Part shown: positions 4,352 to 63,710 of the stretch, one piece after another
Layout of the letters: each line of letters opens with the position of its first letter
How positions within the stretch are numbered: the first letter of the stretch is position 1
From: Kocuria rhizophila DC2201
GTDB lineage: Bacteria > Actinomycetota > Actinomycetes > Actinomycetales > Micrococcaceae
DNA length: 64,000 nt
Direction of reading: 5' to 3'
Assembly: GCF_000010285.1 (NCBI RefSeq)
Contig: NC_010617.1
Location: forward strand, 434,001-498,000
Notes under the pieces: model-generated
The model's input: the letters and a program-made list of their open reading frames with translations, nothing else
What the model was told of the DNA's origin: nothing
The model's database searches: none
Program-made: the position numbers and the translations under genes

Positions 4352-4975
4352 ATGAGCGATTCCGAGAACACCCAGGGCCACGGCCAGTCCGTGCCGGAGG
4401 ATCCGGAACAGCCCGCTCGCACCGGTCAGGACGGCACCGAGGGACAGGAGGGGCTCACCGTGGACGACATCCTCGGCACCCCCCAGTCCCAGGAGGCCGG
4501 GTCCGCGGACGCGGCGTCGTCGTCCGGCGACGCCGCCCCGGCGGGCGGCTCCGAGGCCCAGAAGCTGGCCGACGAGCGGCTCGAGGACCTGCGGCGGCTG
4601 CAGGCGGAGTTCGTGAACTTCAAGAACCGCACGGCGCGGGAGAAGGACCAGCTGCGGGACTTCGTCTCGGGTGAGCTGATCTCCGCGCTGCTGCCGGTGC
4701 TGGACGACGTCGACGCCGCCCGCAAGGCGGGCGACCTCACGGACGGCCCGTTCGCGGCGATCGCCACCAAGCTCGAGGACGCCCTGGGCAAGAAGGGACT
4801 CACCCGCATCGGTGAGGTGGGGGAGAGCTTCGACCCCAACGTCCACGAAGCCGTGATGCAGCAGCCCACCGACGAGGTGGAGCCGGACCACGTGTCCATG
4901 GTGCTGCGTTCGGGCTTCAAGGTGGGCAACCGGGTGGTCCGGGCGGCCCAGGTGGCCGTGGCGGCGCAGCCGTAG
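4352..4975 (+). CDS. grpE: Nucleotide exchange factor GrpE
   Basis: Encodes 207 residues. The ATG at 4352 lies two bases after the dnaK stop. The first 70 residues are acidic and low in complexity and include a DAASSSGDAA stretch written by one copy of the dispersed word (4511-4520). The GrpE core follows: a long coiled coil from about LADERLEDLRRLQAEFVNF and the beta domain with FDPNVHEAVMQ and SGFKVGNRVVRAAQVAV. GrpE releases ADP from DnaK. It is co-transcribed with dnaK; a hairpin at 4989-5024 separates it from dnaJ. Confidence 0.96.
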   Translation: MSDSENTQGHGQSVPEDPEQPARTGQDGTEGQEGLTVDDILGTPQSQEAGSADAASSSGDAAPAGGSEAQKLADERLEDLRRLQAEFVNFKNRTAREKDQLRDFVSGELISALLPVLDDVDAARKAGDLTDGPFAAIATKLEDALGKKGLTRIGEVGESFDPNVHEAVMQQPTDEVEPDHVSMVLRSGFKVGNRVVRAAQVAVAAQP

Positions 4976-4988
4976 CGCACACCAACAC

Positions 4989-5024
4989 CTCGGGGCGGGT
5001 CCACATGACGGGACCCGCCCCGAG
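4989..5024 (+). terminator. Hairpin between grpE and dnaJ (attenuator or partial terminator)
   Basis: CTCGGGGCGGGTCC (4989-5002) pairs perfectly with GGACCCGCCCCGAG (5011-5024) around an 8-base loop. There is no T-run. Inside an operon it could lower expression of dnaJ-hspR relative to dnaK-grpE or protect the 3' end of the dnaK-grpE message; this role is inferred. Confidence 0.6.
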
Positions 5025-5059
5025 TCCTACTGAGGAAGATTTCACAGGAAGGAGGCGTC

Positions 5060-6091
5060 ATGGCCAGTCAGGACTGGATCGACAAGGATTTCTACAGCGT
5101 CCTGGGCGTCTCCAAGGACGCATCCCCGGAAGACGTCAAGAAGGCGTACCGCAAACTGGCCCGCAAGTACCACCCGGACCAGAATCCGGGGGACGCGGCT
5201 GCGGAGAAGAAGTTCAAGGACATCACCGAGGCGAACTCCGTGCTCTCCGACCCGGAGGAGCGTGAGCAGTACGACGCCATCCGGGCCATGGGCTCGGGTG
5301 CGCGCTTCACGGCCGGCGGGCCCGCGGGAGCGGGCGGCACCGGCGGCGCGGGCTTCGAGGACATCTTCGGGGACCTGTTCAACGGCGGTGGCGGCGGCCG
5401 CAGGCGCTACACCACGTCCAGCGGCGGCGGCGGGTTCGAGGACCTGTTCGCGCAGTTCGGCGGTGCCCAGGGCGGGGACACCCGTTTCAGCACTGGTGGC
5501 GGCTTCGGCGGCCAGGGTGGGTTCGGCGGCTATCAGGCCCCGCCCACCAAGGGCGAGGACATTCACACGACCACCACCATTCCGCTGCGCTCCGCGTACC
5601 ACGGCACCACCGTGAAGCTGCGCCGGGGCAACGGGCAGACCACCACGGTGCGCGTGCCCAAGGGCGTGAAGGACGGCCAACGGCTCAAGATCGCCGGCAA
5701 GGGCCACACCGGCCCGGGCGGCAACGGGGACCTGTTCGTGACCGTCAAGGTCAAGGAGCACCCGTTCTTCACCCGGGAGGGCCAGGACGTCCACGTCACG
5801 GTCCCGGTGACCGTGAGTGAGGCCGGTCTGGGGGCCACCGTGCAGGTGCCCACCCTGGACGGGGGCCACGTGAGCGTGAAGGTTCCCGCGGGGACATCGT
5901 CCGGGCGCCGGATGCGCGTCAGGGGCAAGGGCTTCACCACGGGATCCAGCACGGGCAACATGATCGTCACCGTGCAGATCCAGCTGCCCGCCGACCTCGA
6001 CGACGCCGCCAAGGAGGCCCTGCGCACGTTCGCCGAGGCCACGGGGGACTTTGATCCCCGTGCGTCCTTGACCGAGGAGGCCGCGGTCTGA
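5060..6091 (+). CDS. dnaJ: DnaJ-type co-chaperone lacking the zinc finger
   Basis: Encodes 343 residues after AGGAAGGAGGCGTC, a strong ribosome site. The J domain spans about 9-75 with the HPD triad at 38-40, which stimulates DnaK ATPase. A long Gly/Phe-rich region (about 80-165) and two beta-rich substrate-binding domains follow. The protein has no cysteine at all, so the CxxCxGxG zinc region of classical DnaJ is absent; by architecture it is a class B (CbpA-like) J protein. Position between grpE and hspR leaves little doubt that it is the operon's DnaJ. Confidence 0.93.
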
Positions 6092-6092
6092 G

Positions 6093-6599
6093 ATGTCCAT
6101 CGACTTCGCCCAGCCCGTCTTCGTGATCTCAGTCGCGGCCGAGCTCGCGGACATGCACCCGCAGACGCTGCGCCAGTACGACCGCCTGGGCCTGGTGACC
6201 CCGTCCCGGGCCTCCGGGCGGGCGCGCCGCTACTCCCAGATGGACGTGCAGAAGCTGCGCCAGATCCAGGAGCTCTCCCAGGATGGGGTGTCCCTGGAGG
6301 GCATCAAGCGGATCATGCAGCTGGAGAACCAGGTACAGGCGCTGCAGTCCCGGGTCACGGAACTCTCCGAGGAGCTGGAGCAGGAGCGGGAGGCCCGGCG
6401 CGAGCGGGACATGATCTTCACGGCGGGTTCCGAAGGGGACGTCGTGAGGATCGCCCGCGGCTCGCTTCGGGCGCCGCGCAAGGTCTCGCAGGCGCTCATG
6501 CTCTACCGCCCGGCCCGGCCGGAGCACGGTGGCCGCGACACCGGCGCCGCCGATGCCCCGACCGCACGCGGGATGAAGCGCGGCCGTAGCGCGTCCTGA
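6093..6599 (+). CDS. hspR: Heat-shock repressor HspR (MerR family)
   Basis: Encodes 168 residues; its ATG lies one base after the dnaJ stop, so it is probably translationally coupled. A MerR-type helix-turn-helix occupies about 10-80 (HPQTLRQYDRLGLVTPSR, then SGRARRYSQMDVQKLRQIQ), followed by a coiled coil (LENQVQALQSRVTELSEEL) and a basic tail. HspR represses the dnaK operon and, in many actinobacteria, clpB, by binding HAIR repeats with DnaK as co-repressor. Three HAIR sites are visible in this window, two before dnaK and one before clpB. Confidence 0.95.
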   Translation: MSIDFAQPVFVISVAAELADMHPQTLRQYDRLGLVTPSRASGRARRYSQMDVQKLRQIQELSQDGVSLEGIKRIMQLENQVQALQSRVTELSEELEQEREARRERDMIFTAGSEGDVVRIARGSLRAPRKVSQALMLYRPARPEHGGRDTGAADAPTARGMKRGRSAS

Positions 6600-6613
6600 G
6601 CGCACCTCGGCAT

Positions 6614-6652
6614 GCAGGGACCCCGCACCACCTCGTGGTGCGGGGTCCCTGC
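6614..6652 (+). terminator. Terminator of the dnaK operon
   Basis: GCAGGGACCCCGCACCAC (6614-6631) pairs perfectly over 18 bp with 6635-6652 around a 3-base loop, 14 bases after the hspR stop. There is no T-run, as is common in GC-rich actinobacteria. Confidence 0.8.
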
Positions 6653-6740: not shown

Positions 6741-6769
6741 CCCCGGCCGGGATCCCTGTGGCCGCAGGG

Positions 6770-7747
6770 TCAGCGATGCCGGTAGGTCAGATCCCGGGGC
6801 ACGCGGCCGGCCTCCGTGGCCTTGCGCTCGAAGCTCGTGAGGACCCGCCCGTCCCAGCGCGGTGCCCACCCCGTCTCGGGGTGCTCGTCGTCGGCCACGG
6901 GCCCGGGGTGGAGGTTCTCGAAGTCGGCGTCCGCGGCGTCGAGCACCTCGCGCATCACCACGGCGTACTCCTGCCAGTCCGTGGCCAGGCGCCACAGCCC
7001 GCCCGGCTCGAGTACGCGCGCGGCGAGCTCGGCGAAGCGGGGGGAGACCAGGCGGCGCTTGTGGTGGCGGGTCTTGTGCCACGGATCGGGGAAGAACACC
7101 CACAGCTCGCGCACGGATGCCGGTTCGAGCATGTGCTCGAGCACCTCGGGGGCATTGGCCTGGGCGACCCGCACGTTCTCCACCCCGGCCTGCGCGGCCT
7201 TCATGAGCAGGTCCGCGATCCCGGGCTTGTAGACCTCCACCGCGAGGTGGTCCAGCTCGGGGTGCGCGGCGGCGTGCGCCACGATCGCCTCGCCCAGCCC
7301 GGAGCCGATCTCCACCACGAGCGGCGCGGTGCGGCCGAACACGGCCTCCCGGTCCAGGTGGTAGGAGGGGTCCACGGAGGTGTCAGTGCGCACGCGGGGG
7401 ATCTCCAGGACCCACTGCCCGGCATGCTCTTCCCACGCCTTCTGCCGCTTGGGGGAGAGCCGGTCCCCGCGGCGCACGAACGAGAACGGCTGCCGGTGGA
7501 ACGCCGCGGGGGTCGCCCCGGGGCCGTCGGTGCCGGGCTCGCCACCCACCGCGTCCCCGGACGACGACGCCGCCGCGCCGCCCCCGCCGTCCCGCGGTGC
7601 GGCGGCCCGCTCGCCGTGCTCGGCGTCCGAGTGCTGGGCGGTGGTCGCCGGCGCGGTGGCCGGGGTGCCCGGGGCGGACGAGTCCGGCAGGGCGGCGTCG
7701 TCCCCGGAGGGGAGGGCGGAGGACTGGGTGCGATCGCTGGATTCCAT
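6770..7747 (-). CDS. trmB: tRNA (guanine-N7-)-methyltransferase TrmB
   Basis: Encodes 325 residues from the ATG at 7747, the first ATG downstream of a weak AGGA. It transfers a methyl group from S-adenosylmethionine to G46 of tRNA. The SAM site VVEIGSGLGEAIV and the family hallmark FFPDPWHKTRHHKRRLV are both present, and the C-terminal half is complete. The first 85 residues or so are an Ala/Ser/Asp-rich extension absent from typical TrmB of about 230 residues; it contains AAASSSGDAVG, written by the dispersed word at 7564-7573. Confidence 0.93.
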   Translation of the reverse strand: MESSDRTQSSALPSGDDAALPDSSAPGTPATAPATTAQHSDAEHGERAAAPRDGGGGAAASSSGDAVGGEPGTDGPGATPAAFHRQPFSFVRRGDRLSPKRQKAWEEHAGQWVLEIPRVRTDTSVDPSYHLDREAVFGRTAPLVVEIGSGLGEAIVAHAAAHPELDHLAVEVYKPGIADLLMKAAQAGVENVRVAQANAPEVLEHMLEPASVRELWVFFPDPWHKTRHHKRRLVSPRFAELAARVLEPGGLWRLATDWQEYAVVMREVLDAADADFENLHPGPVADDEHPETGWAPRWDGRVLTSFERKATEAGRVPRDLTYRHR

Positions 7748-9227: not shown

Positions 9228-9527
9228 CGCACGACGCCGCCCGCGCCCCCAGCGCGCTCCCGCACCCCGGCGCGCGCTCGGGCGGCGGGCCCCTCGGCCG
9301 CGGCGCCGCAGGGACCCGTACCCGGCGGGTCGAGCGTGCAGGGGTCTCGTCATCCCCTCGTGCACGGGTGCTCCGGCACCCCGGTGACCCGGCACCCGGG
9401 TGCGCAGGGCACCGGGGCGGCCGCGCGGCGTCGTCGTGCCCGAGGACCGGCGGGGCTGGCAACACCGCCGCGCCACGCGGCGGATGGGCCGGGAGCCGCG
9501 GCGCCGATGTGGTTCACTGTGCCAAAC
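9228..9527. other. Non-coding stretch with hairpins between the MFS and AGCS genes
   Basis: I see no convincing gene here. The stretch holds two copies of the dispersed word (9231-9240 directly after the MFS stop, and 9425-9434), an imperfect hairpin around 9334-9362 (CGTGCAGGGG facing CCCCTCGTGCACG), and CCCCGGTG/CACCGGGG arms near 9378-9418. Either hairpin could end transcription of the MFS gene. Confidence 0.5.
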
Positions 9528-13771: not shown

Positions 13772-15298
13772 TCAGGAGCGCGCGGCGGCGTCGTTGCCCG
13801 TGATGGCCGGGGGCGTGGGCGCGGAACCCGTCTCCGAGAGGGCGGGCGTGGGCGAGGTGAGGTCCACCTCGTGGCCGATCTGCGCGTCCAGGGCGCCGGG
13901 GTGGCTGCCCATGAACGCGTTGATCTCCTCGGTGGTGGCGGTGAACTTGGGGTCGTGGTCCAGGTAGAGCCTGGTCTCCCGGACCACCAGCCCGGAGAGC
14001 ATCACCAGCCCGATCAGGTTGGGGATGGCCATGAGGCCGTTCATGATGTCCGAGAACGTCCACACGAGCGCCAGGGGGGCCAGCGCCCCGAGACCGGCGG
14101 CGACCGAGAAGACCACGCGGTACACGATGGCCGCCCGCGCCCCCGCCAGGCGCTCCACGTTGCGCTCGCCGTAGTACGCCCAGCCCAGCACGGTGGAGTA
14201 GCCCAGCAGCACCAGGCAGATGGTCACGATGGTGCCGCCCCACTCACCCGGCAGCCCGGTGGCGAAGGCCCGGGAGGTCATGGTGGCGGTGTCGCCCTGG
14301 GTCCACATGCCGGTGGTGAGGATCACGAAGCCCGTGATGGAGATGACCACCAGGGTGTCCACGAACGTCTGGGTCATGGACACGAGCCCCTGGCGCACGG
14401 GGTGGCTGGTCTGGGCGATGGACGCCGCGATTGAGGCGGTGCCCATGCCGGACTCGTTGGAGAACAGCGAGCGCGCCGCGCCCATGCGCATGGCCACGAG
14501 CACCGTGGAGCCCACGAAGCCGCCCGTGGCGCCCATGGGGGTGAACGCACCTGTGAAGATCAGCCGCAGGGCCTCGGGGATGCCCTCGTAGTTCACGCCG
14601 ATGATGTAGAGACCGGAGCCGATGTAGAGCACGATCATCAGCGGCACCATGTAGGTGGTCACCTTGGCGATGGACTGGATGCCGCCCACCAGGGCCAGCC
14701 CGGTGCCCATCGCGAGCACCACGGCGGTCAGCACGGGCGGCACGCTGAAGGAGTGCTCCAGGTTGGACGCGATCGCGTTGCCCTGGGTCATGTTGCCGAT
14801 CCCAAACGTGGCCACCACGCAGCCCACCGCGAAGACCACGGACAGGGCCCGGCCGAACTTGTTGGGGATCCCGCGGGCCAGGTACACCTGCGGTCCGCCC
14901 GTGAGCTGCCCGGCGGTGTCCCGGGTGCGGAAGCGCACGCCCAGGAAGCACTCCGCGTACTTGGATGCCATGCCGAACAGCGCCGTGATCCACATCCAGA
15001 ACAGCGCGCCCGGCCCGCCGATGGAGATCGCGGCGGCCACGCCCACGATGTTGCCGGTGCCCACGGTCGCGGCCAGCGCGGTGGACATGGCCGCGAAGGA
15101 GGAGATGTCCCCCTTCTCGCCCTTGGCGCGCGAGCGGCGCCCGAAGCCCAGGCTCATGGCCTTGGTGAACAGGCGGAACTGGATCCCGCGCAGGCGGAAC
15201 GTGAGGAAGACGCCCGTGCCGAAGAGCAGGGGCAGGAGCAGCCACGGCCCCCAGATCAGGTCGCGAACGGTGTCCAAGCTGCTTTGCAGGGATTCCAT
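13772..15298 (-). CDS. Alanine/glycine:cation symporter (AGCS family), second copy
   Basis: Encodes 508 residues from the ATG at 15298; the ribosome site is weak (GGAAAGCTCC, about 8 to 14 bases away). It shares with the protein at 9590-11056 the motifs STALAATVGTGNIVGVA, GPGALFWMW, LFSNESGMGTASIAAS and VRQGLVSMTQTF. Ten or so membrane segments are visible. The C-terminal tail after residue 450 is low in complexity and ends GNDAAARS, written by a copy of the dispersed word at 13785-13794. Substrate probably alanine or glycine. Confidence 0.92.
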   Translation of the reverse strand: MESLQSSLDTVRDLIWGPWLLLPLLFGTGVFLTFRLRGIQFRLFTKAMSLGFGRRSRAKGEKGDISSFAAMSTALAATVGTGNIVGVAAAISIGGPGALFWMWITALFGMASKYAECFLGVRFRTRDTAGQLTGGPQVYLARGIPNKFGRALSVVFAVGCVVATFGIGNMTQGNAIASNLEHSFSVPPVLTAVVLAMGTGLALVGGIQSIAKVTTYMVPLMIVLYIGSGLYIIGVNYEGIPEALRLIFTGAFTPMGATGGFVGSTVLVAMRMGAARSLFSNESGMGTASIAASIAQTSHPVRQGLVSMTQTFVDTLVVISITGFVILTTGMWTQGDTATMTSRAFATGLPGEWGGTIVTICLVLLGYSTVLGWAYYGERNVERLAGARAAIVYRVVFSVAAGLGALAPLALVWTFSDIMNGLMAIPNLIGLVMLSGLVVRETRLYLDHDPKFTATTEEINAFMGSHPGALDAQIGHEVDLTSPTPALSETGSAPTPPAITGNDAAARS

Positions 15299-15400
15299 GG
15301 GGGACGGAGCTTTCCATGAGGGATGGTGCGGATTGCTGACCAACCTAGCAGTACCCCTTGGGGTGCAGTGCCCCGCCTTTTGTGCCCGGGGCGGAAAAGG

Positions 15401-15434
15401 CGACGACGCCGCAGGGTGGCCTGCGGCGTCGTCG
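15401..15434 (-). terminator. Terminator of the DoxX gene built from an inverted pair of the dispersed word
   Basis: CGACGACGCCGCAGG (15401-15415), loop GTGG, then the exact complement at 15420-15434: a perfect 15-bp stem. On the minus strand it is followed by CCTTTT, giving the standard terminator form, 21 bases past the DoxX stop. Each arm contains one full copy of the 10-bp word (15403-15412 and 15423-15432). Confidence 0.85.
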
Positions 15435-15455
15435 TGACCGGATGCGTGTGAGGCG

Positions 15456-22087: not shown

Positions 22088-22687
22088 ATGAGTTCCCAGG
22101 ACCGTGAGCCCGCAGCCCTCTCGAGACCGGGATCGGCGCTGTCCCGCAGCTTCCCCGCGGTCATGGTGGTGGTGGCGCTGCTGCTGGCCCTGTGGGTCGG
22201 CTTCGGCCGTGCCCTGGCGGGTGTGCTGGGCGGTCTCACACCGGTGTACGCCGTGGCGATCGCCCTGCCCGTCCTGGTGCTCCACGTGATTGCGGCGGCG
22301 CTGTTCCGCCGGGACGCCCTGAACTACCCGTCCCACGCCGTGAGTCGGCGGGCCGTGCTCACCGCGGTGGGCGCCTGGCTCGTGACGCTGGGGTTCGGCT
22401 TCTTCCTCCCGGACGCCACCGCCCAGGGCATGCAGTCCGTGTTCACGCGTGTGGCGGGAGCGGGGTACCTGGAGCTCGGCTACGGGTTCGTGAACATCTT
22501 GGGCGTGCTGTCCGTGGCCATGGCGGTGGCCCTGGTGCTGCTGGCGGTCACGGAGCTGCGGGTCACCGCGCGGCGGCTGCGCGGCGAGCCGCTCACTGAG
22601 GACAAGCGCCTGGACCGGCTGGAGGCCCAGCGGGAGGACGACGCCGCACGTCCGGGCACCGCGGCGTCGACCGGGGGCCGCTCGTGA
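22088..22687 (+). CDS. Membrane protein of unknown function, four helices
   Basis: Encodes 199 residues. Four hydrophobic segments are visible (about 24-46, 53-75, 95-113 and 135-162), with a charged, low-complexity C-terminus that includes REDDAARPGTAAS, written by a copy of the dispersed word (22638-22647). I do not recognise the family. Its stop overlaps the next start as GTGA, so it is coupled to the GNAT gene. Confidence 0.75.
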   Translation: MSSQDREPAALSRPGSALSRSFPAVMVVVALLLALWVGFGRALAGVLGGLTPVYAVAIALPVLVLHVIAAALFRRDALNYPSHAVSRRAVLTAVGAWLVTLGFGFFLPDATAQGMQSVFTRVAGAGYLELGYGFVNILGVLSVAMAVALVLLAVTELRVTARRLRGEPLTEDKRLDRLEAQREDDAARPGTAASTGGRS

Positions 22688-24373: not shown

Positions 24374-27037
<2,664 letters not shown>

Positions 27038-32910: not shown

Positions 32911-34274
32911 GTGAAGGTATTGGTGGTGGGCCCAGGCGGCCGCGAGCACGCGATGATCATGTCCCTGCTGCGGGACCCGCACGTGAGCGAGGTCCACGCG
33001 GCCCCCGGCAACGCCGGGATCGCCCGTGACGTCCCCGTGCACCCGCTCAACGCCCAGGACCCGGACGCCGTGGTGGCCCTGGCCCGCGAGCTCGCGGTGG
33101 ACCTCGTGGTGGTGGGTCCGGAGGCGCCGCTCGTCGCGGGCGTCGCCGACGCCCTCACGGAGGCCGGGATCCCCGTGTTCGGCCCGTCCCGCGAGGCCGC
33201 CCGGATCGAGGGCTCCAAGGCGTTCGCCAAGGAGGTCATGGCCGCAGCGGATGTTCCGACCGCGCGGGCCGTGGCCACCTCGGACCTGGCGCAGGTGCGC
33301 GAGGCGTTCGAGCAGTTCGGCGCGCCCTACGTGGTCAAGGACGACGGTCTGGCCGCGGGCAAGGGCGTGGTGGTCACGGACGACCGCGAGCGCGCCGAGG
33401 CCCACGCCCGCGAGTGCCTCGACGCCGGGGGCTCGGTGCTCGTGGAGGAGTTCCTGGACGGTCCCGAGGTCTCCCTGTTCGTGCTCAGCGACGGCACGCA
33501 CGTGGTGCCGCTGCAGCCGGCGCAGGACTTCAAGCGCGTGCGGGACGGGGACCGGGGCCCCAACACGGGCGGCATGGGGGCCTACACGCCGCTGGACTGG
33601 CTCCCCGAGGGCTTCGCCGGGGAGGTCGTCGAGCGGGTGGCCCGGCCCGTGGTGGACGAGCTGCGACGCCGCGGCACCCCGTTCACGGGCGTGCTCTTCT
33701 GCGGGCTGGCCGTCACGTCCCAGGGCATGCGGGTGATCGAGTTCAACGCGCGCTTCGGGGACCCCGAGACCCAGTCCGTGCTGGCGGTGCTGGAGACGCC
33801 GCTCGGGCAGCTGCTGCTCGACGCCGCCACGGGACGGCTGTCCGAGGAGCAGCCCCTCGAGTGGGAGCCCGGTGCGGCCGTGACGATCGTGCTCGCGGCG
33901 CACAACTATCCCGGGGCCCCGCGTACGGGGGACGTGATCACCGGGCTCGAGGACGCCGCCCGTGAGGAGGACACGTGGGTGGTCCACGCCGGCACGGCCC
34001 GCGACGCCGCAGGGAACCTGGTCTCGGCTGGCGGGCGGGTGCTCGCGGTCGTGGCCCGGGGCGCTGATCTGGGGGAGGCGCGCGAGCGCGGCTATCGTGG
34101 CATGGAGCACATCACCCTGGACGGATCGCACCACCGCACGGACATTGCCCTGGACGCCGCGCACGGCCGCGTGGCGCTGCCCGGGGTGGGGGCGGCGTCG
34201 TCGTCCCCGGCGGACCCGGACGGCGGAACCGGTGCGGACGCCCCGCCCACGGCGCGCACGGCAGAGGAGCAGGC

Positions 34275-35223: not shown

Positions 35224-35246
<23 letters not shown>

Positions 35247-35589
35247 GCGCCCCGCCCGGTCCGGCCCAGCGGGCGCGGGCCATGTCCACCCGGACCCAGT
35301 GCGCCGCGGTCTCGAGCAGGGGCGTGCCCTCCCGCTCGTAGTGCTCCCGAGCGCCGATCTGCAGCCGGTCCGGCAGGGTGCCGTCCGCACGCACTACGCG
35401 CCACCACGGAATGTCCTCACCAGCCTGGCCCAGGGCCATGATGCGCGCGGCCAGCCGCGGGGTGCCCAGCCCGGCGAGCTCCGCGACGTCCCCGTAGGAC
35501 AGCACCGCGGCGGGCGGGACGGCCAGCACGACGCCGCGCACCGCCTCGACCGCGTCCGCCCCGGTGCGGGTGCCGCGCCCCTCGCTCAC
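35224..35589 (-). CDS. Alkyltransferase-like protein (ATL), MGMT family without the active cysteine
   Basis: Encodes 121 residues from a GTG at 35589 that overlaps the histidine kinase stop as GTGA. The winged-helix fold of O6-alkylguanine methyltransferase is recognisable in LSYGDVAELAGLGTPRLAARIMA and IPWWRVVRADGTLPDRL. The methyl acceptor motif PCHRV reads P-W-W-R-V, so the reactive Cys is replaced by Trp, as in ATL proteins that mark O6-alkylguanine for nucleotide excision repair. Translational coupling to a sensor kinase is unusual for this family. Confidence 0.85.
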
Positions 35590-41767: not shown

Positions 41768-43755
41768 GCGTCACGTCCCTCGGCATGCCCGCCGTGCGTC
41801 CCGTGCACGGGCAGGGCAACCTGCACGCGCAGGTCGCCTTCCCCAAGGCCGCCAAGAAGGAGCTGCAGAACAAGCAGATGCGCGCCAACATCCGGCACGC
41901 CACCCACACCATCCGCGCCAAGCGCGCCGGCGTGGTGGGGGAGGTCCCGGACTGGAGCGAGCTGCGCGACGCCGGTTCCGCCATCAAGGAGACCGTGATG
42001 GCGGGGCTGCCCGAGCTGCTCGAGCTGTTCGAGGCGAACGTGACGGCGCGCGGCGGCGTCGTCCACTGGGCCCGGGACGCGGACGAGGCGAACGCCATCG
42101 TGACCCGTCTGGTCCAGGAGCAGGACACCACGGACGTGATCAAGGTGAAGTCCATGGCCACTCAGGAGATCGGGCTGGACGAGCACCTCTCCGAGCACGG
42201 GATCACCGCCACGGAGACGGACCTCGCCGAGCTCATCGTGCAGCTGGGGCGGGACAAGCCCTCCCACATCCTGGTGCCCGCGATCCACAAGAACCGCGAG
42301 GAGATCCGCGAGATCTTCAGCCGCGAGATGCCCGGCGTCACCGAGGAGCTCACGAGCGAGCCCCGAGTGCTCGCGGAGGCCGCGCGGCAGCACCTGCGGG
42401 AGAAGTTCCTCACCTCCAAGGTGGCCATCAGCGGCGCGAACTTCGGCATCGCGGATACCGGCACCCTGTCCGTGGTGGAGTCCGAGGGCAACGGGCGCAT
42501 GTGCCTGACCCTGCCCGAGACCCTGATCACCGTGATGGGCATCGAGAAACTGTTGCCCACCTACCAGGACCTCGAGGTGTTCTTCCAGCTCCTGCCGCGC
42601 TCCTCCACTGGCGAACGCATGAACCCGTACACCTCCCTGTGGACCGGCGTGACGCCCGGGGACGGCCCCAAGAACTTCCACGTGGTGCTCCTGGACAACG
42701 GGCGCTCCGCGGTGCTCGCGGACCCGCAGGGTCGCTCCGCACTGCACTGCATCCGGTGTTCCGCGTGCCTGAACGTGTGCCCCGTGTACGAGCACGCGGG
42801 CGGGCACTCCTACGGCTCCACCTACCCCGGTCCCATCGGGGCGATCCTCTCGCCGCAGCTCACGGGCATCACGTCCGAGGAGAATGCCTCCCTGCCGTAC
42901 GCGTCCTCCCTGTGCGGGGCGTGCTACCAGGTGTGTCCCGTGAAGATCAACATCCCCGAGATCCTCGTGCATCTGCGGGACGAGGACATCCGCGCCCAGC
43001 ACGGGAAACGCGCGGACCACGCCAACCCAGCACCGGTCTCCAAGGACCCCGCGGTGGGCGGGGACGACAACTGGCGCGAGGAGAAGTCCCTGACCGCGGA
43101 CGAGGGCCGGGGTGGGCAGGACACTGCCCCCCAGGAGGGCACCCTCCAGGAGCTCGGTTCTCGGGCGCGTCGCGCAGGACGCCGCATCCGAGGAGCCGTG
43201 CCTTCCCGCGGTGTGCCCACGCAGATGGACGCCATGATGAAGGGCGCCTCCTTCGTGATGTCGTCGGGCCAGCGGATGTCCTTGGCGGAGCGCGGGCTAC
43301 CCATGGGCCGTGTAATCGCCGGCCGCGACCGCGCCATCGGCTGGCTGCCCGGCATGGTGGGCGGCTGGACCGCCGAGCGCGACATCCCCGAGCCCCCCAA
43401 GGAGTCCTTCCGCAACTGGTGGAAGAAGCACGAGGGGGAGACCGACGAGCGGCTCGAGCGCGACGGCGTCACCGCGGCGTCGGGAACCGCGCGCACCGGT
43501 GCGGGGCCCGCGCAGGGCCACCCGGCGGCGTCGTCCCCCGGGGAGGCGAGCCCCGCGGGTGCGCACGGCGAGTCCAAGGCCGCCCGGACCGAGGAGACCG
43601 CCGCGGGCACCGGCAAGGACGCCGCCACCCCGGGTGCCGGCGCGGACGCCGTGGCCGGAGCGGACAGTGCCGCCACGGGCGACCCCCAGAAGGACAACAT
43701 CGCACCCCGCAACGGCCACGCAGGCCGCGGGAACCAGGACGGAGAGCGGGCATGA
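41764..43755 (+). CDS. lutB: Lactate oxidation Fe-S protein LutB with long C-terminal extension
   Basis: Encodes 663 residues, against about 475 in Bacillus LutB. The core contains an N-terminal LUD-like region (VAISGANFGIADTGTL, RMCLTLPETLI) and two 4Fe-4S motifs, CIRCSACLNVCPVY (about 329) and CGACYQVCPVKI (about 385). From about residue 435 a basic linker and a conserved-looking segment (FRNWWKKHEGETDERLERD) are followed by about 100 Ala/Gly/Thr-rich residues including HPAASSPGEAS, written by the dispersed word (43525-43534). Coupled to lutA and lutC by ATGA overlaps. Confidence 0.93.
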   Translation: MSVTSLGMPAVRPVHGQGNLHAQVAFPKAAKKELQNKQMRANIRHATHTIRAKRAGVVGEVPDWSELRDAGSAIKETVMAGLPELLELFEANVTARGGVVHWARDADEANAIVTRLVQEQDTTDVIKVKSMATQEIGLDEHLSEHGITATETDLAELIVQLGRDKPSHILVPAIHKNREEIREIFSREMPGVTEELTSEPRVLAEAARQHLREKFLTSKVAISGANFGIADTGTLSVVESEGNGRMCLTLPETLITVMGIEKLLPTYQDLEVFFQLLPRSSTGERMNPYTSLWTGVTPGDGPKNFHVVLLDNGRSAVLADPQGRSALHCIRCSACLNVCPVYEHAGGHSYGSTYPGPIGAILSPQLTGITSEENASLPYASSLCGACYQVCPVKINIPEILVHLRDEDIRAQHGKRADHANPAPVSKDPAVGGDDNWREEKSLTADEGRGGQDTAPQEGTLQELGSRARRAGRRIRGAVPSRGVPTQMDAMMKGASFVMSSGQRMSLAERGLPMGRVIAGRDRAIGWLPGMVGGWTAERDIPEPPKESFRNWWKKHEGETDERLERDGVTAASGTARTGAGPAQGHPAASSPGEASPAGAHGESKAARTEETAAGTGKDAATPGAGADAVAGADSAATGDPQKDNIAPRNGHAGRGNQDGERA

Positions 43756-44548: not shown

Positions 44549-47377
<2,829 letters not shown>

Positions 47378-48768: not shown

Positions 48769-48795
48769 GCGGCGTCGGCAACCGGACGACGCCGC
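48769..48795. repeat. Inverted pair of the dispersed word between thiO and thiE
   Basis: GCGGCGTCG (48769-48777) and CGACGCCGC (48787-48795) are 9-bp inverted arms with a 9-base loop. The right arm is part of a full copy of the word (48786-48795). It lies in the divergent gap, between a possible -10 box of the thi operon and the riboswitch, so it would be transcribed as a 5' hairpin of the thi leader. Confidence 0.7.
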
Positions 48796-50234: not shown

Positions 50235-51097
50235 AGCTCCACGCTCCCGGTGATGCGCACCGCGCACTCGCCGCCCACCAGCACGGCGCCCTGCCGGTCC
50301 GAGATCACGTGCACGAGTCCGTGCCGGCCCACGCGGGTGCCCTGCCGTGCCGTGTACTCGCCGGGTGCACGCCCGGTGCGGATCAGCCACTGCGCGAGGG
50401 CCGCGTTGAGGCTGCCCGTCACGGGGTCCTCGTAGCCGCGGGCCCCGGGCACGAAGGCCCGCACCTCGAAGCGGTGCCCGGCCCCGTCCGGCGCCGGGCC
50501 CACCACGCCCACCTTCCGGTCCCCGAGCGCGGCGTAGTCGGGCTCGACGCCCAGCACGTCCTCGGCGGAGGCGAGCAGCAGCGCGGCCCACCCGGGGCCG
50601 TTGTCCACCCACTGGTGGTCGCGCACCTGCCCCTCGGCCAGCCCGAGCGCCACGGTGACCGCCCGCAGGTCCCCGGGGTCCAGCCCGCCCGAGCGGAGGA
50701 TGGGTGGGGCCTCGAAACGCAGCGCGGCGGCGTCGTCGTCCGGGGACGGGACGTGGATGCGGACGAGACCCGCCGCGCACTCCTGGACCACCCTGCCGGG
50801 GGCGCGCGGGGCGTGGCCCGCCGCGAGCCACGCGCGGGCCGAACCCAGGGTGGGGTGCCCGGCGAAGGGCAGTTCGCGGTCCGGGGTGAAGATGCGCAGC
50901 CGGTAGTCGGCCGCGGGGTCGGTGGGCGGCAGCACGAACGTGGTCTCGGAGAGGTTGGTCCAGGTGGCGAACCGTGCCATCTGCTCTTCCGAGAGGCCCG
51001 TGCCGTCCAGGACCACGGCCACGGGGTTGCCCTGGCAGGGCTCGGCGGAGAAGACGTCCACCTGGGCGAACGGGCGGGAGCGGGGTGCGGAGGTCAT
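50231..51097 (-). CDS. PhzF-family epimerase/isomerase-like protein
   Basis: Encodes 288 residues from the ATG at 51097. FAQVDVFSAEPCQGNPVAVV at the start, ETTFVLPP, LRIFTPDRELPFAGHPTLGSA and the C-terminal PVTGSLNAALAQWL match the PhzF superfamily of cofactor-free isomerases with a diaminopimelate-epimerase fold. Function is unknown here; there are no phenazine genes nearby. The insert SPDDDAAALRF is written by the dispersed word (50727-50736). Confidence 0.87.
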   Translation of the reverse strand: MTSAPRSRPFAQVDVFSAEPCQGNPVAVVLDGTGLSEEQMARFATWTNLSETTFVLPPTDPAADYRLRIFTPDRELPFAGHPTLGSARAWLAAGHAPRAPGRVVQECAAGLVRIHVPSPDDDAAALRFEAPPILRSGGLDPGDLRAVTVALGLAEGQVRDHQWVDNGPGWAALLLASAEDVLGVEPDYAALGDRKVGVVGPAPDGAGHRFEVRAFVPGARGYEDPVTGSLNAALAQWLIRTGRAPGEYTARQGTRVGRHGLVHVISDRQGAVLVGGECAVRITGSVEL

Positions 51098-52718: not shown

Positions 52719-55700
52719 TCAGCGGGTGACCCGCTCCAGGACCTGCAGCACGTGCTCGTAGGGCCGGCCCGTGGCCTCCGTGAGGGCCTGCTCGCACGTC
52801 CGATTCAACGATGCATACGCATCGAAATCTCCGGCAACGACCTCCGCGGCCTCGCGCCGGGTGGCGGACGCCGTGAGCTCCGGGTGCAGCATCCCGCGGT
52901 CCCCCGCGTAGCCGCAGCAGCCCCAGTCCACGGGCACGGTGACCTCCCCGGCGCACGCGTGGGCCACGCGCAGCAGGTCCTCGGTGGCGCCCAGGTGCAC
53001 GGACGAGCACGTGGGGTGCACGGCCAGGGTCTCCAGGGGTGCTCCCCGGTCCAGCCCGGGCAGCACGTGCTCGGCGGTGAACGTCACGGCGTCCACGAAG
53101 CGCAGGTCACGGTACACGGGGTGCTCCGTAGCCAGCTCCCGCATGGTCTCGAGCCCCTCCGTGCAGGACGCCGCATCGCACACGACCGGCAGCCGCCCGT
53201 GCTCGGACGCCTCCCAGAGCATCCCGAGGGTCCGCTCGCTCATCGTGGCGTAGCCGGTGGGCAGTCCCTTGGACTTCCACGGGGTGCCGCAGCAGGCCGC
53301 GTCGATGCCCTCCGGGATCCGCACGGCCACCCCGGCGCGCTCGCACAGCCGCAGGAACGCCTCGGACGCCGAGGGGCCCTCACCGGAGACCGTGCCGAAC
53401 ATCGCCCCGATGCACGCGGGGAAGAACACGGCCCGGACGGGGCGGTGCTCGGCGGAGGTCGACGCCGCGGCGTCACCGCGGGGAGCCGCCGCCCTCACTC
53501 CTGCGGCACTCGTGCCCTGGGCGCTCGTGCCCGGGGCGCCCGCAGCCCCTCGGACCGGTTGCCCGGCAGGGGAGTGCGCGGGCGGCGTCGTCAACCGGGA
53601 GCGGGTGCCGCCGCCCGCCGGGAGCGTGGCGTTGTAGCGGGGGACCGTGTCTGCGCCGAGCACCGCGCGGGCCGCGCGGGTGGCGGAGACCGGAAGCACC
53701 GCGGGCATGTGCGAGGCCATGGTGAGGGCGAAGGCCGCCCCGGCGGAGGTCGCGGCCCACGAGCGCGCGGCGGCTCCCCACGCGAGGTCCGCGACCGTGG
53801 AGTGGTTCTCCGCGCGCAGCCGCCGCACCAGGTCGCCCGTGTTGATGTGCACGGGGCAGGCCGTGACGCACATGCCGTCCACGGCGCACGTCTGCAGCCC
53901 GGCGTAGTCGTACTCGCGGCGCAGCCGTGCGGCCAGGGCGGTGTCCCCGCGCTCCTCGGCCTGGGCGATCTCCCGGCGTCCCACGATGCGCTGGCGCGGG
54001 GTGAGGGTGAGGTCCTGGGACGGGCACACCGGCTCGCAGTAGCCGCACTCCACGCAGCGGTCCACCTCGGACTCCACGGGCGGGGCGGTCTTGAGGTCCC
54101 GCAGGTACGCGCGCGGGTCCTCGGTGAGGATCACCCCGGGGTTGAAGCGGTTGCCGGGATCGATCAGGGCCTTCAGCTCCACCATCACCGAGTACAGCTC
54201 GTCCCCGTACTGCCGCCGCACGAACGGGGCCATGATCCGCCCGGTGCCGTGCTCGGCCTTCAGGGACCCACCGCGGCCGAGCACCAGATCCACCATCTCC
54301 TCGGTGAAGCGCTCGTAGCGCTCCAGCTGGGCGGGATCGTCGAACTGCTCGTTGAGCATGAAGTGGACGTTGCCGTCCTTGGCATGGCCGAAGATCACGG
54401 AGTCCCGGTAGCCGTGGGCGTCGAAGAGTCCGGTGAGCTCCTCGCACGCGCCGCCCAGCTGGTCCACCGGCACCACCACGTCTTCGAGCAGCGCGTTGGT
54501 GCCCTGCGGTCGGTTGCCCGCCACGGTGGTGTAGAGCCCCTTGCGCACGGTCCACAGGCTCGCGCGCTCGCGGGGGTCGGTGGTCAGGGCCACCGGCCCG
54601 GCCAGCTCGAGCGCATCGAAGGTGGACGCCGCCGCCTCCGCCAGCTCCCGCACACCTGCCGCGGTGTCGTGCTGGTACTCCACGAGCAGTGCGGCCTGCT
54701 GGCCCACCGGGATGTCCATGATCGCGGGCGGCGCGAGTCCGGTGCGCTGCGAGACCGCCAGGGACGTGGCGTCCATCAGCTCCAGGGTGGCGCACTGCGA
54801 GCCCACCAGCTCCGGAACGGCACTCGTGGCGGCCACCACGGTGGGGAACACCAGCAGGCCGGTGGCCACGTGCGGGTGCACGGGCACGGTGCGCAGGGTC
54901 GCGCTCGCCACGAACCCCAGGGTGCCCTCCGAGCCGATCATGAGGTGCTCCAGGACGGCCACGGGGTCCTCGTGGTCCAGGAACGAGTTCAGCCCATAGC
55001 CCATGGTGTTCTTCATGGCGAACAGCCGCTCAATGGTCCGCACGGACTCCGGATTGCCCCGCACGCGGTCCCGCAGCCGGAGCAGGCCCTCGAACAGGTC
55101 GGGCTCTCGGGCCCGCAGCTGCTCACCAGCATCCGGGGCGGCGGTGTCCAGCACCGTGCCGGAGGGCAGCACGAGCACCATGGACTCCAGGGTGCGGTAC
55201 GTGTTGAACTCGGTGCCGCACGCCATCCCGGAGGAGTTGTCGGCCACCACTCCGCCCAGCGTGCACGCGGACTCGCTGGCCGGATCCGGGCCCAGCGCCC
55301 GCCCGTGCGGAGCCAGCCGCGCATTGACCTGGCGCACGGTGACCCCCGGTTGCACGCGCACGCGGGCACCCCGATCCAGGACCTCCACGCTCTTGAAGTG
55401 GCGGCGGACGTCCACGAGGATCTGGTCCGTGACGGACTGCCCCGACAGGGACGTGCCGCCCGAGCGCAGGGTCAGGCCCGCGTCCGTGTCCGCGGCCGCG
55501 GCGAAGATCTGCCCCACCTCGTGCGTGTCTCGCGGGCGCAGCACCGCGCGCGGCTGCATCAGGTAGTGGGAGGCGTCGTGGGCCACCGCGCGCCGCTCCA
55601 GCTCCCCGGTGACGACGACGCCGCTGCCGCACTCCCGCTCGATCCTCGCCACCGCGTGGTCCAACGGAGAGTCGAGGGGAGCCGGGGCGTCGTCGGGCCG

Positions 55701-59624: not shown

Positions 59625-60539
59625 ATGGACGCCCCCCGCGGGAGCGAGCGCATCTTCGCGGTGCCCCGCGCGTACTCCAAGGCGGCCCGTGCGTGGCTCG
59701 AGCGCGGGCTCGGCATGCACGGGTCCGCGCCGCGCCACGGTGCGGCCACGGTGTTCGTGCGTGACGGCGAGCACGGGGTCGAGACCCTCATGCTCCACCG
59801 CCCCGGGCGCCAGTCCATGGGTACGCTCTCGTTCCCCGGTGGCATCACCGAGACCAGCGACGACGAGCCCCTGAGCTGGTGCGGGCCGTCCCCCGCCGAG
59901 TGGGCGCACCGGCTGCTCTCGGAGGACATCGGTCTCTCACGACGCCGCGTGGTCGCCGCCGCGCGCAAAACGTTCGTGGAGACCGGGATCCTCTTCGCCG
60001 GGACCCCCATGTACGGGGTCGCGGACACCGTGGAGGGCGTGGACTGGATGCGCTCGCGGGAGCTGCTGGCCACGGAGGACATCTCCTTCGCGGACCTGCT
60101 GGCCAAGCGCAGCATGGCGTTCCACAGCGAGTGCCTGCGCCCGCTGTCCCACTGGGTGACCTCGGACTTCGTGCACCAGCGGGTGGACCTGCAGTTCTTC
60201 GCGGCGGCGGTGCCCGTGGGTCAGCGCCACAGTCCGCTGGCCACCCAGCGCGGGCGCGCGTGGCTCGGGTGGGTGGATGCCCGCACGCTGCTGGAGGACC
60301 CGTGGTCCACGCCGGTTCCCGAGCTGTTCCGGCAGCAGGCCGAGGACTCCGCGCTCACGGACGATCCGAGGCACTTCGAGTTCCACGAGCTCACCACTCC
60401 CGGGGTGCAGTGCGCCGTGGAGGCGGTGGCCGAGGCGTCCTCCGCGGTGGCGTTCCTCGCGGCGCGCCGGGACCTGCGGGTGCGCAGCCCCCGGTTGGAC
60501 CTGCGCGACGGCGAACCCGTCCTCGTGCTCGACGGCTGA
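59625..60539 (+). CDS. Nudix-like hydrolase with degenerate Nudix box
   Basis: Encodes 304 residues, starting two bases after the RidA stop. RHGAATVFVRDGEHGVETLML and GTLSFPGGITETSDD open a Nudix-like fold of the NUDT19 type. The box itself reads G-x(n)-AARKTFVETGILFA instead of R-E-U-x-E-E-x-G-U: the Arg, one Glu and Gly remain while two acidic metal ligands are Lys and Val. It may therefore be inactive or act on an atypical substrate. Often found in this position beside RidA in actinobacteria. Confidence 0.8.
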   Translation: MDAPRGSERIFAVPRAYSKAARAWLERGLGMHGSAPRHGAATVFVRDGEHGVETLMLHRPGRQSMGTLSFPGGITETSDDEPLSWCGPSPAEWAHRLLSEDIGLSRRRVVAAARKTFVETGILFAGTPMYGVADTVEGVDWMRSRELLATEDISFADLLAKRSMAFHSECLRPLSHWVTSDFVHQRVDLQFFAAAVPVGQRHSPLATQRGRAWLGWVDARTLLEDPWSTPVPELFRQQAEDSALTDDPRHFEFHELTTPGVQCAVEAVAEASSAVAFLAARRDLRVRSPRLDLRDGEPVLVLDG

Positions 60540-60697
60540 CACCGGACCTCGCACCCGCCCCGCTGGGATCCGCCGCTGCGGGCGTGCTCAACGGCGGACA
60601 CCCGCACACCCCACCGCGAGCAGCCGCACACCCCACCGCCGGACGACGCCGCCCGGGCCGGTACGCGACGCACGCCACGGTGAGCGCGTGCACAACG

Positions 60698-61684: not shown

Positions 61685-62869
61685 ATGACCCTGGCCCTGA
61701 ACCTCCTGGACGCCGTGCTGATCGTCGTCCTGCTGGCGTACCTGGTGGCCGGGTTCCGCCGAGGCTTCTTCCGCTCGTTCGCGGCCCTGGTGGGCCTGCT
61801 GCTGGGCGCTGTGCTGGCCTTCTGGGCAAGTCCCGTGGTGGCCGCGTACGTGGACACCCAGTGGCAGATCCCCACCGTGCTGCTCACGGTCCTGGTGCTG
61901 CTGGCCCTCGGCGAGTACCTGGGCGCCGTGCTGGGCAGGGCCCTGTCCGAGCTGCTGGAGAAGTCCGGGGTGGGTCTGCTGGACCGGCTCGGCGGTGCGG
62001 TGCTCAACGTGGTGGTGGCCGGCCTGGTGATGTCCCTGCTGGGCTCCCTGGTGGGGCAGATGGGTCTGCCGGGGCTCTCCCAGCAAGTGGCGTCCTCCCA
62101 GGTGCTGCGCGGGATCGAGCGCATGACCCCGGATCCGGTGCGCCACGCCATGACCCAGACCCGCAACGCGATCAGCGGTGCGCAGGGCATCCGGCAGCTG
62201 GACGAGCTGCTGTTCCCCACGCAGGCCGCCCCCGATCCGAAGGACACCCCGGACTCGCAGACCGTCGCGGACGCCGGGCAGTCCGTGGTGCAGGTCTACG
62301 GCACGGCCGCCAAGTGCGCCCAGAACCAGACGGGCTCCGGCTTCGTGGCCCAGCCCGGCACCGTGGTCACCAACGCTCACGTGGTGGCGGGCGTGGACCA
62401 GCCCGTGGTCGAGACCCGGGACGGCCGCGCCTACCCCGCCCGTACCGTGCAGTACGACGCCGCCTCGGACCTCGCCGTGCTGCGCATCCCGGACCTGCCC
62501 GAGGCCCCGCTGAGCATGGACGGGACCGTGAGCCAGGGCGAGGCCGTGTCCTTCGCGGGCTACCCCCTGGGCGGGCCCTACACCCTGCGGGCGGCCACCG
62601 TGCAGGGCCAGGCCGTGGCCCCCGTGCAGAACGTCACCACGGGGGAGACACAGACCCGCAGCATCATCCAGATCGCGGGCAAGGTGGAGCAGGGCAACTC
62701 GGGCGGGCCGCTGCTCGACGCGGACGGCCACGTGGTGGGCGTGGTCTTCGCCAAGGCCGTGCAGGACCAGGTGGGCTACGCCATTCCCGTGGACCGGGTC
62801 CGCGAGGTGCTCACCGCGGCAGGGGACTCCACGGAGTCCGTGGCCACGGGCGAGTGCGTGGTGCCCTGA
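61685..62869 (+). CDS. marP: MarP-type membrane serine protease (CvpA domain plus trypsin-like domain)
   Basis: Encodes 394 residues from the ATG at 61685 (GAGGACCGTTG upstream). Four CvpA-like membrane helices (to about residue 150) precede a chymotrypsin-fold protease facing outward, with the triad His in TNAHVVAG, Asp in YDAASDLAVLRI and Ser in GNSGGPLL. Two cysteines, in AAKCAQN and ATGECVVP, match the pair that forms the stabilising disulfide in mycobacterial MarP. MarP is needed for acid and oxidative stress resistance there. Next to crp, as in other actinobacteria. Confidence 0.92.
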   Translation: MTLALNLLDAVLIVVLLAYLVAGFRRGFFRSFAALVGLLLGAVLAFWASPVVAAYVDTQWQIPTVLLTVLVLLALGEYLGAVLGRALSELLEKSGVGLLDRLGGAVLNVVVAGLVMSLLGSLVGQMGLPGLSQQVASSQVLRGIERMTPDPVRHAMTQTRNAISGAQGIRQLDELLFPTQAAPDPKDTPDSQTVADAGQSVVQVYGTAAKCAQNQTGSGFVAQPGTVVTNAHVVAGVDQPVVETRDGRAYPARTVQYDAASDLAVLRIPDLPEAPLSMDGTVSQGEAVSFAGYPLGGPYTLRAATVQGQAVAPVQNVTTGETQTRSIIQIAGKVEQGNSGGPLLDADGHVVGVVFAKAVQDQVGYAIPVDRVREVLTAAGDSTESVATGECVVP

Positions 62870-62882
62870 TCCCTGGGGCGAC

Positions 62883-62912
62883 GCTCCTGCCCGGGCCGCT
62901 CCTGCCCGAGCC
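62883..62912 (+). repeat. Tandem 15-bp repeat after marP
   Basis: GCTCCTGCCCGGGCC (62883-62897) is followed directly by GCTCCTGCCCGAGCC (62898-62912), one mismatch. It lies 13 bases after the marP stop in the convergent gap before aroQ. No function evident. Confidence 0.75.
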
Positions 62913-63031
62913 GTGGCTGAGCGGGCCGTGCGTAACGGGGGCGTGGGTGTCCGGTGCAGTTGCGGGACGGCCCGTCCGGGCAGCGGCGCGTCGGTGCCGC
63001 TGCGGCTGCGCCGCCTTGAGGTGCGGTGCGC

Positions 63032-63478
63032 TCAGCCCAGGCCGAGGTTCCGGGCCACCACGTCCACGGCCAGTTCGTAGCCCAGCACCCCGGCCCCGGC
63101 GATCACCGCGGTGGCCTGCGGCGAGACGAAGGACGTGTGGCGGAACGCCTCCCGGCGGTGCACGTTGGAGATGTGCACCTCCACGACCGGCATCTCGCAC
63201 ATCTCCAGCGCGTCGTGGATGGCCACGGAGTAGTGGGTCAGGGCGGCGGGGTTGATCACGATCCCGCACGCCTCGGTGCGCGCGCGCTGGATCCAGTCCA
63301 CGAGCTGGCCCTCCCAGTTGGACTGCTCGAACACGACCTCCAGCCCGTAGCTCTGCGCCCTGGCGCGCACGTCGGCCTCGACGTCCGCCAGGGTGGTGTG
63401 CCCGTAGATCTCGGGCTTGCGCGTGCCCAGCGTGTTCAGGTTCGGGCCGTTGAGGACGTGGATCGGCAGCTCGCTCAT
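63032..63478 (-). CDS. aroQ: Type II 3-dehydroquinate dehydratase
   Basis: Encodes 148 residues from the ATG at 63478, which gives the standard start of the family ([21 protein letters not shown]). Other motifs are [16 protein letters not shown] and [20 protein letters not shown] with the catalytic His, then GYELAVD. The enzyme converts 3-dehydroquinate to 3-dehydroshikimate in aromatic amino acid synthesis. It stands alone here; other shikimate genes are not in the window. Confidence 0.95.
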
Positions 63479-63566
63479 GCCCCCATTCAAGCGCATCGGT
63501 CCCGCCCACTGTGCCGCGGACGCACGACGCCGCGGTGGCCCTCCCGGGTCTCCCGGGCAGATCGCG

Positions 63567-63620
63567 CGGGCCGTTCCTCCGGCGGGCGCCGCCCGGGCCG
63601 TTGCTCTGCTGGGTGCCGCC
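63567..63620 (+). repeat. Degenerate tandem 27-bp repeat
   Basis: Two 27-bp units (63567-63593 and 63594-63620), both starting CGGGCCGTT and ending GCCGCC, agree at 22 of 27 positions. They lie in the 252-base gap between acsA and aroQ, which also holds two copies of the dispersed word (63524-63533 and 63661-63670). Confidence 0.65.
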
Positions 63621-63660
63621 CGGGCGTCTGACGGTCCCCGTCGCGGGGCACTCGCCACGG

Positions 63661-63710
63661 ACGACGCCGCCGCGGTGCCTCCCGTGGGGAAGGCGCCGCG
63701 GCGGCGTCGT
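63661..63710 (-). terminator. Terminator of acsA built from an inverted pair of the dispersed word
   Basis: ACGACGCCGCCGCGG (63661-63675) pairs perfectly with CCGCGGCGGCGTCGT (63696-63710); TGCC (63676-63679) and GGCG (63692-63695) extend the stem to 19 pairs with one G-T. It starts 20 bases after the acsA stop on the minus strand. Each arm holds one full copy of the 10-bp word. Confidence 0.75.

Follow-up and report, generated by a model that had tools for sequence, protein, structure and literature searches.

A ten-base word scattered through the genomes of one Kocuria clade, a probable DNA uptake sequence

Why should one ten-base word recur so densely along a bacterial chromosome? The question is raised by a 64-kb window (the whole stretch of DNA that was analysed; positions 434,001-498,000 of the single contig of 2,697,540 bases that makes up the genome of Kocuria rhizophila DC2201), in which the word GCGGCGTCGT is the commonest 10-mer, with 30 exact copies, 14 on the forward and 16 on the reverse strand. 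An initial annotation of the window had correctly recognised a dispersed word at the coordinates it gave, with a hand count of 27 (12 and 15) that these figures replace. Its expectation of about one chance occurrence agrees with dinucleotide-preserving shuffles of the window (n = 100), in which GCGGCGTCGT averaged 1.00 copies with a maximum of 4, and its density of about one copy per 2.4 kb holds for the entire host genome, where the word occurs 1,124 times over 2.70 Mb, 567 times forward and 557 times reverse, versus 43 times for a control with the letters reversed.

We conclude that GCGGCGTCGT is a real, maintained and clade-specific word, which is like an uptake sequence in most of the structural respects that can be tested. 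It is probably the DNA uptake sequence of one Kocuria clade that includes the host, convergent with the DNA uptake sequence (DUS) of Neisseria and the uptake signal sequence (USS) of Haemophilus. Among the functions that the initial annotation had entertained, uptake is the one favoured by our tests, a preference based on anatomy, phylogeny and gene content and not on function.

To place the copies relative to genes, we used a 464-kb sample comprising the window and 20 evenly spaced 20-kb stretches (∼17% of the genome), in which a home-made gene caller delineated 397 genes covering 85% of the DNA. This sample holds 202 copies of GCGGCGTCGT, namely 115 within genes, 1 at a gene edge, and 86 in the 15% of the sampled DNA that lies between genes, so that the density is about fourfold higher in intergenic DNA (1.23/kb) than in genes (0.29/kb). 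In the window, the same caller placed 20 copies in genes and 10 between them. First- to third-order Markov models predict only 0.7-1.3 intergenic copies in the sample, compared with the 86 observed. Moreover, no other intergenic 10-mer is equally common: words capable of overlapping GCGGCGTCGT reach 53 occurrences, and the best of the others, CCCGCCCCGG, reaches 18.

For the copies within genes, synonymous codons were permuted gene by gene, so that each gene kept both its protein and its codon usage. The 115 genic copies lie well outside the range of these shuffles (37.9±4.3, maximum 48, n = 100), as well as that of a dicodon-conditional resampling that keeps codon-pair preference (47.3±4.7, maximum 56, n = 50), and no coding 10-mer with at least 12 copies shows a larger excess over shuffles. 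In each of the six frames, the observed number exceeds the maximum of 100 shuffles (observed versus shuffle mean: 21/1.7, 13/3.0, 9/0.1, 6/0.9, 60/30.9, and 6/0.0), including the two Arg-Arg-Arg frames, in which the word hardly ever arises in shuffles. Because the excess is present in all six frames, protein or codon preference alone cannot be its cause. Codon preference, which the initial annotation expected to raise the count, is not the full explanation; roughly one in three coding copies survives the shuffles.

GCGGCGTCGT is an exact 10-bp word with sharp borders and without a longer surrounding repeat. Its own positions carry 1.5-2.8 bits of information and the flanking positions at most 0.46 bits, so that the extension towards CCGG noted at first is a weak flank preference and no more. 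By comparison, the USS has an extended flanking consensus. The absence of conservation past the ten bases also led us to reject a mobile repeat of the repetitive extragenic palindrome (REP) or miniature inverted-repeat transposable element type. Further, all thirty one-mismatch forms together occur 83 times between genes (a sum made by hand from the count table), compared with 86 perfect copies; 18 of the 83 overlap a perfect copy, and these 18 are among the 25 intergenic occurrences of the commonest form, GCGTCGTCGT. That perfect copies slightly outnumber all single-mutation forms combined suggests active maintenance. The reverse complement, ACGACGCCGC, differs from the word, which is hence not a palindrome; the suggested analogy with HIP1 was discarded, and with it a HIP1-like word as a candidate.

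The abundance of the word is confined to part of one genus. Among 27 Kocuria genomes (G-numbers below are our genome handles), 12 contain 499-1,124 copies and 15 contain 44-237, a high/low split that was drawn after the counts were known. In a ComEC protein tree of 26 sequences, a branch with 100/100 support separates the 12 high-word genomes from the rest; G015 (97 copies, 76% complete) gave no ComEC match and is absent from the tree. Across 437 distinct genomes, the 12 high-word Kocuria carry ∼172-417 copies per Mb and the other 425 at most ∼156 (in G052, from a genus labelled g27), with densities and tallies worked out by hand from rounded genome sizes. Small samples of the 11 high-word relatives each held 1 to 6 intergenic copies, which was above the Markov expectation every time (for example, 6 versus 0.10 in G025 and 4 versus 0.05 in G008). 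No intergenic copy was present in the samples of the low-word G003, G004, G006, G010, G011, G013, G014, and G021, or in the recalculated sample of the low-word G019. For these comparisons, the gene model of a relative fell back to that of the host where training data were sparse, which was recognised from inflated intergenic totals and affected at least G018, G019, G020, G022, G052, G079, G244, and the smallest samples; recalculated figures are used for G017, G019, G020, G022, G052, and G079. A 40-kb sample of G183, a genome from genus g14 (by our guess Micrococcus), contained 3 genic copies versus 2.8 in shuffles, and none between genes.

Within the clade, the word is also conserved in place. 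Using a 524-kb host reference made up of the sample, window included, and additional stretches, we found host GCGGCGTCGT sites intact in high-word relatives at 20 of 43 aligned positions, compared with 149 of 647 for 300 permuted words (Fisher p 0.0014, with sites that are non-independent since a host position is counted repeatedly when several relatives cover it). The flanks of GCGGCGTCGT were slightly less conserved than those of the controls (0.783 versus 0.810). For single frequent words picked by hand, the intact share ranged from 0 to 73%, with 1 to 31 sites per word. In low-word Kocuria, 1 of 11 host sites was intact versus 21 of 306 permuted-word sites.

A variant that is one letter off, GCGTCGTCGT, is frequent in genus g27, with 411 copies in G052 and 594 in G079, versus 10 and 25, respectively, for its reversed controls. 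Its genic copies exceed shuffles clearly in G079 (27 versus 4.2±1.7) and to a smaller extent in G052 (7 versus 2.0). In G079 it has preferred flanking bases: G at position -3 (79%), C at position -2 (85%), and T at position +3 (76%), counted outwards from the ends of the word. The same variant exceeds codon shuffles in the Kocuria genomes G022 (21/4.9), G020 (11/2.1), and G017 (10/4.8). GCGTCGTCGT may be a dialect of GCGGCGTCGT in genus g27, though a less sharp one, and related genera may use one-letter dialects of this kind. Genus g27 has a GC content of ∼59%.

The 30 copies in the window are as follows, given by window coordinates, strand, and location, with the residues that the word reads in a gene.

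4511..4520, forward, within gene 4352-4975 (forward), reads AASS
6000..6009, reverse, within gene 5060-6091 (forward), reads DDAA
7564..7573, reverse, within gene 6770-7747 (reverse), reads AASS
7692..7701, forward, within gene 6770-7747 (reverse), reads DDAA
9231..9240, reverse, intergenic, 3 bases past major facilitator superfamily (MFS) transporter gene 7848-9227
9425..9434, forward, intergenic
13785..13794, forward, C-terminal end of Na:alanine symporter gene 13772-15277 (reverse), reads NDAA
15403..15412, reverse, left arm of an intergenic inverted pair
15423..15432, forward, right arm, paired with 15403..15412
22638..22647, reverse, within gene 22163-22687 (forward), reads DDAA
22727..22736, reverse, within gene 22684-23310 (forward), reads YDAA
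26383..26392, forward, within Clp/AAA gene 24374-27037 (forward), reads VRRR
29506..29515, forward, C-terminal end of gene 29484-30959 (reverse), reads DDAA
32865..32874, forward, intergenic, divergent gap
34192..34201, forward, within gene 32923-34278 (forward), reads AASS
35528..35537, reverse, within gene 35224-35589 (reverse), reads RGVV
42053..42062, forward, within LUD/Fe-S gene 41764-43755 (forward), reads GGVV
43525..43534, forward, within the same LUD/Fe-S gene 41764-43755, reads AASS
46641..46650, reverse, within ThiG-domain gene 45805-47016 (reverse), reads AASS
48786..48795, reverse, intergenic, divergent gap
50727..50736, forward, within PhzC-PhzF family gene 50231-51097 (reverse), reads DDAA
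52588..52597, reverse, end of MFS gene 51373-52605 (forward), reads TTPQ
53582..53591, forward, within flavin adenine dinucleotide (FAD)-oxidase/Fe-S gene 52719-55652 (reverse), reads TTPP
55615..55624, reverse, within the same FAD-oxidase/Fe-S gene 52719-55652, reads SGVV
59939..59948, reverse, within gene 59625-60539 (forward), reads SRRR
60643..60652, reverse, intergenic, convergent gap
62454..62463, reverse, within gene 61685-62869 (forward), reads YDAA
63524..63533, reverse, intergenic
63661..63670, reverse, left arm of an intergenic inverted pair
63701..63710, forward, right arm, paired with 63661..63670

Two inverted pairs in this list exemplify an arrangement seen in the sample. Among 18 neighbouring pairs at most 60 bases apart, 11 have the hairpin order ACGACGCCGC...GCGGCGTCGT, 2 are ordered the opposite way, and 5 are direct repeats. 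All four hairpins that were folded are far stabler than shuffles (z -5.1 to -7.1), including (i) the one at 15395-15440 (-35.8 kcal/mol, z -7.1), which lies just past the 3' end of the reverse-strand gene 15456-15851, and (ii) the one at 63655-63716 (-52.7 kcal/mol, z -6.9), which lies close behind the 3' end of a reverse-strand gene that starts at 63731 and is truncated by the window end. In these folding models, the paired hairpins look like terminators that lack a T run.

The host possesses a natural-competence gene set, judged by gene presence, of comEA, comEC, dprA, and two Tad/Flp loci. Its comEA, with SLBB and helix-hairpin-helix domains, adjoins comEC. Among named ComEC proteins, the nearest to that of the host come from K. 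tytonicola, K. rhizophila TA68, K. salsicia, K. varians, and K. tytonis. The first Tad/Flp locus (genome ∼505,980-510,983) begins ∼8 kb past the window end, and the second lies at 1,007,303-1,012,010. The first also includes a DUF4244 protein that resembles an Flp pilin but for a long extension at its N-terminus. ComEC is present in 26 of the 27 Kocuria genomes (the exception being the 76% complete one) and DprA in all 27; a second DprA-like match occurs in five genomes, G001, G008, G017, G019, and G026 (C1:69006-69617). A type IVa retraction ATPase was rejected as a marker of high-word genomes, with no pilT family match above the cut-off in any of the 27 genomes and weaker secretion-ATPase matches in all 27.

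A mechanism can be proposed from these components. A putative surface receptor, probably residing on the Tad/Flp pilus system, would bind duplex DNA bearing GCGGCGTCGT during natural transformation and pass it to ComEA, from which it would proceed as single strands through ComEC and recombine with the aid of DprA and RecA. Since word-bearing DNA would be taken up preferentially, copies of GCGGCGTCGT born by mutation would spread in the population by recombination, and such biased uptake would maintain the high density of the word while restricting transformation to close kin. We lean, by a narrow balance, towards the further view that this is the first uptake sequence from beyond the Pasteurellaceae and Neisseriaceae, both proteobacterial families, with an independent origin in a single-membrane actinobacterium and a Tad/Flp-pilus receptor in place of a type IVa minor pilin (ComP).

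One region of the genome bears on this proposal from another side, as neisserial DUS are sparser in genomic islands (PMC7371117; here and below, papers are cited from extracts of their text). The 26 kb at 987,001-1,013,000 contain 1 copy of GCGGCGTCGT versus 10.8 expected (Poisson 2e-4, for a region picked post hoc that includes the second Tad locus). Its first 20 kb are lower in GC and a serine recombinase is present; from their sequences, other products are read as resolvase-like and long tape-measure-like proteins. Since the gap was seen post hoc and takes in a Tad locus, a depletion of the word in foreign DNA is suggestive only. Two proteins of this island gave only distant matches to phages and plasmids, and an island search by tyrosine integrase yielded 2 matches. 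An apparent integrated element, which also encodes an AAA protein, lies beside the second Tad locus.

Several observations weigh against an uptake function. Kocuria genomes that lack the word carry ComEC, DprA, and Tad-type ATPases just as well, so these genes permit the word and do not explain it. No pilT family match above the cut-off was obtained in the 27 Kocuria genomes, and the competence system of K. rhizophila 301, for which pilB and pilT are listed, has been called incomplete or highly divergent (PMC13388538). The second Tad locus of the host (1,007,303-1,012,010), which is not obviously foreign, is devoid of GCGGCGTCGT. Among high-word genomes, the intergenic excess is weaker than in the host in G026, with 5 copies in ∼21 kb of intergenic DNA and no intergenic/genic contrast, and in G018, with 1 copy in ∼10 kb. 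The low-word G017, G020, and G022 hold 2, 4, and 2 intergenic copies, respectively, so the high/low split is not absolute. Further, a search for a replacement word in 36-123-kb samples of 12 low-word Kocuria genomes gave no clear candidate and turned up local repeats and parS-like sites. Within host genes, 60 of the 115 copies read xDAA (30.9 in shuffles), which places half of the coding excess in one favoured frame, and the test sample itself spans only ∼17% of the genome, with genes from a home-made caller.

Other recurrent words were encountered in the relatives. In G019, GTTTCACGTGAAAC-type words, which we take to be of the parS type, recur between genes, probably near the replication origin. 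A 20-kb stretch of G033 has six to seven occurrences of GCCGAACCGGCCGA-like words, possibly a local repeat, and 43 kb of G014 contain eight to nine intergenic GGGTGAGCCAGGTGG-like words, a possible repeat array.

The main rival to an uptake sequence, which we regard as unlikely, is that GCGGCGTCGT is the site of another genome-wide DNA-binding protein of this clade and is kept because it pays to have the protein bound all along the chromosome. Candidates include a nucleoid organiser, a condensin loader, a global regulator, and a self-mark for defence or modification. Such a role accords with the even spread of the word, since the 20 stretches of 20 kb contain 3-13 copies each (mean 8.6, variance 7.2) and the spacing fits random, Poisson-like placement; with its restriction to one clade and conservation in place; and with the failure of competence genes to separate high-word from low-word genomes. 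Against it stand the lack of a strand pattern and the gap densities, as divergent gaps are the sparsest (22 copies, 1.15/kb) when compared with convergent (21 copies, 1.64/kb) and tandem gaps (43 copies, 1.32/kb), which is mildly unfavourable to a regulator. A promoter or regulator site was rejected on these densities, whose differences are small. The 43 tandem-gap copies are split between 22 along the gene direction and 21 opposed, and 24 of them fall within the third of the gap nearest the upstream gene's end. Inverted pairs at gene ends, moreover, are a described signature of uptake sequences (PMC3630211) and count against this rival.

It is improbable that GCGGCGTCGT is the stem of a transcription terminator element or of a REP-like mobile repeat. 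The 11 hairpins among 18 close pairs, situated mostly at gene ends, would suit this explanation; however, single copies predominate (the 202 copies include 18 close pairs), 115 of the 202 are genic, and nothing is conserved past the ten bases.

Still less probable is a recombination or segregation motif, that is, a Chi site for a RecBCD/AdnAB-type nuclease or an FtsK-orienting polar sequence (KOPS), although an over-represented, conserved, genome-wide word is what either would provide. Chi and KOPS motifs are oriented with replication, and ten exact bases with an intergenic excess would be unusual for Chi. In contrast, 102 of the 202 sampled copies are co-oriented from origin to terminus (binomial p 0.94), with the terminus set at the chromosome midpoint rather than located; the origin position is probably sound because the contig starts with what we recognise as DnaA. 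We therefore rejected both readings, which the initial annotation had listed. Uptake sequences typically occur in both orientations without strand or replichore bias.

Finally, an artefact of composition and codon usage can scarcely be credited: the codon runs GAC-GCC-GCC and GGC-GTC-GTC are favoured, shuffles retain about a third of the coding copies, and many GC-rich relatives have 100-400 copies, but all six frames exceed shuffles, 86 intergenic copies stand against ∼1 expected, and abundance is limited to a single clade in one genus.

If GCGGCGTCGT is indeed an uptake sequence, it would be the third independent case of an uptake word, in a monoderm that has no outer membrane, which would mean that kin-biased transformation evolves repeatedly. 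It would also supply an actinobacterial model, a handle on the receptor for DNA in Flp/Tad-dependent transformation, and a practical rule for laboratory transformation of Kocuria, namely to put GCGGCGTCGT on the DNA. We found no actinobacterial uptake word in searches of open-access papers, a scope that leaves out most subscription journals and all preprints, and a query with GCGGCGTCGT returned no Kocuria or DNA-uptake title among the matches listed. A 2026 terminator survey gives uptake words for Pasteurellaceae and Neisseriaceae, and its main text contains no word starting with Kocuria, Micrococc, or Actinomycet (PMC13020248).

The uptake sequences of Pasteurellaceae and Neisseriaceae are themselves regarded as convergent, independent inventions (PMC12616744, PMC5031613), and the Kocuria word resembles each of them in part. 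Like the neisserial DUS (GCCGTCTGAA and its dialects), it is a 10-bp word that numbers in the hundreds to thousands, sits in permissive sites between genes, forms inverted pairs at terminators (putative ones in Kocuria), and is shared by a clade (PMC3630211, PMC7371117), the dialects of the DUS tracking phylogeny (PMC3630211). It differs from the DUS in that it is unrelated in sequence, occurs in a monoderm actinobacterium without a pilT match above the cut-off, and is sparser, at one per 2.4 kb compared with one per 400-1100 bp in Neisseriaceae (PMC7371117). With the USS of Haemophilus and other Pasteurellaceae (AAGTGCGGT), it shares a short exact core that is found genome-wide and also in terminators, putative ones in Kocuria (PMC13020248), whereas it has no extended flank consensus and belongs to another phylum with another envelope. 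The closest parallel in machinery is Micrococcus luteus, whose transformation requires tad genes from two loci (PMC4322843, PMC6370729). The M. luteus transformation literature consulted, including the extracts of PMC6370729, mentions no uptake sequence. As in M. luteus, comEA-comEC and dprA are present in the host together with two Tad/Flp loci, which encode Flp-, TadE-, and TadF-like proteins; judged by eye, these are similar to the M. luteus N-termini (PMC6370729).

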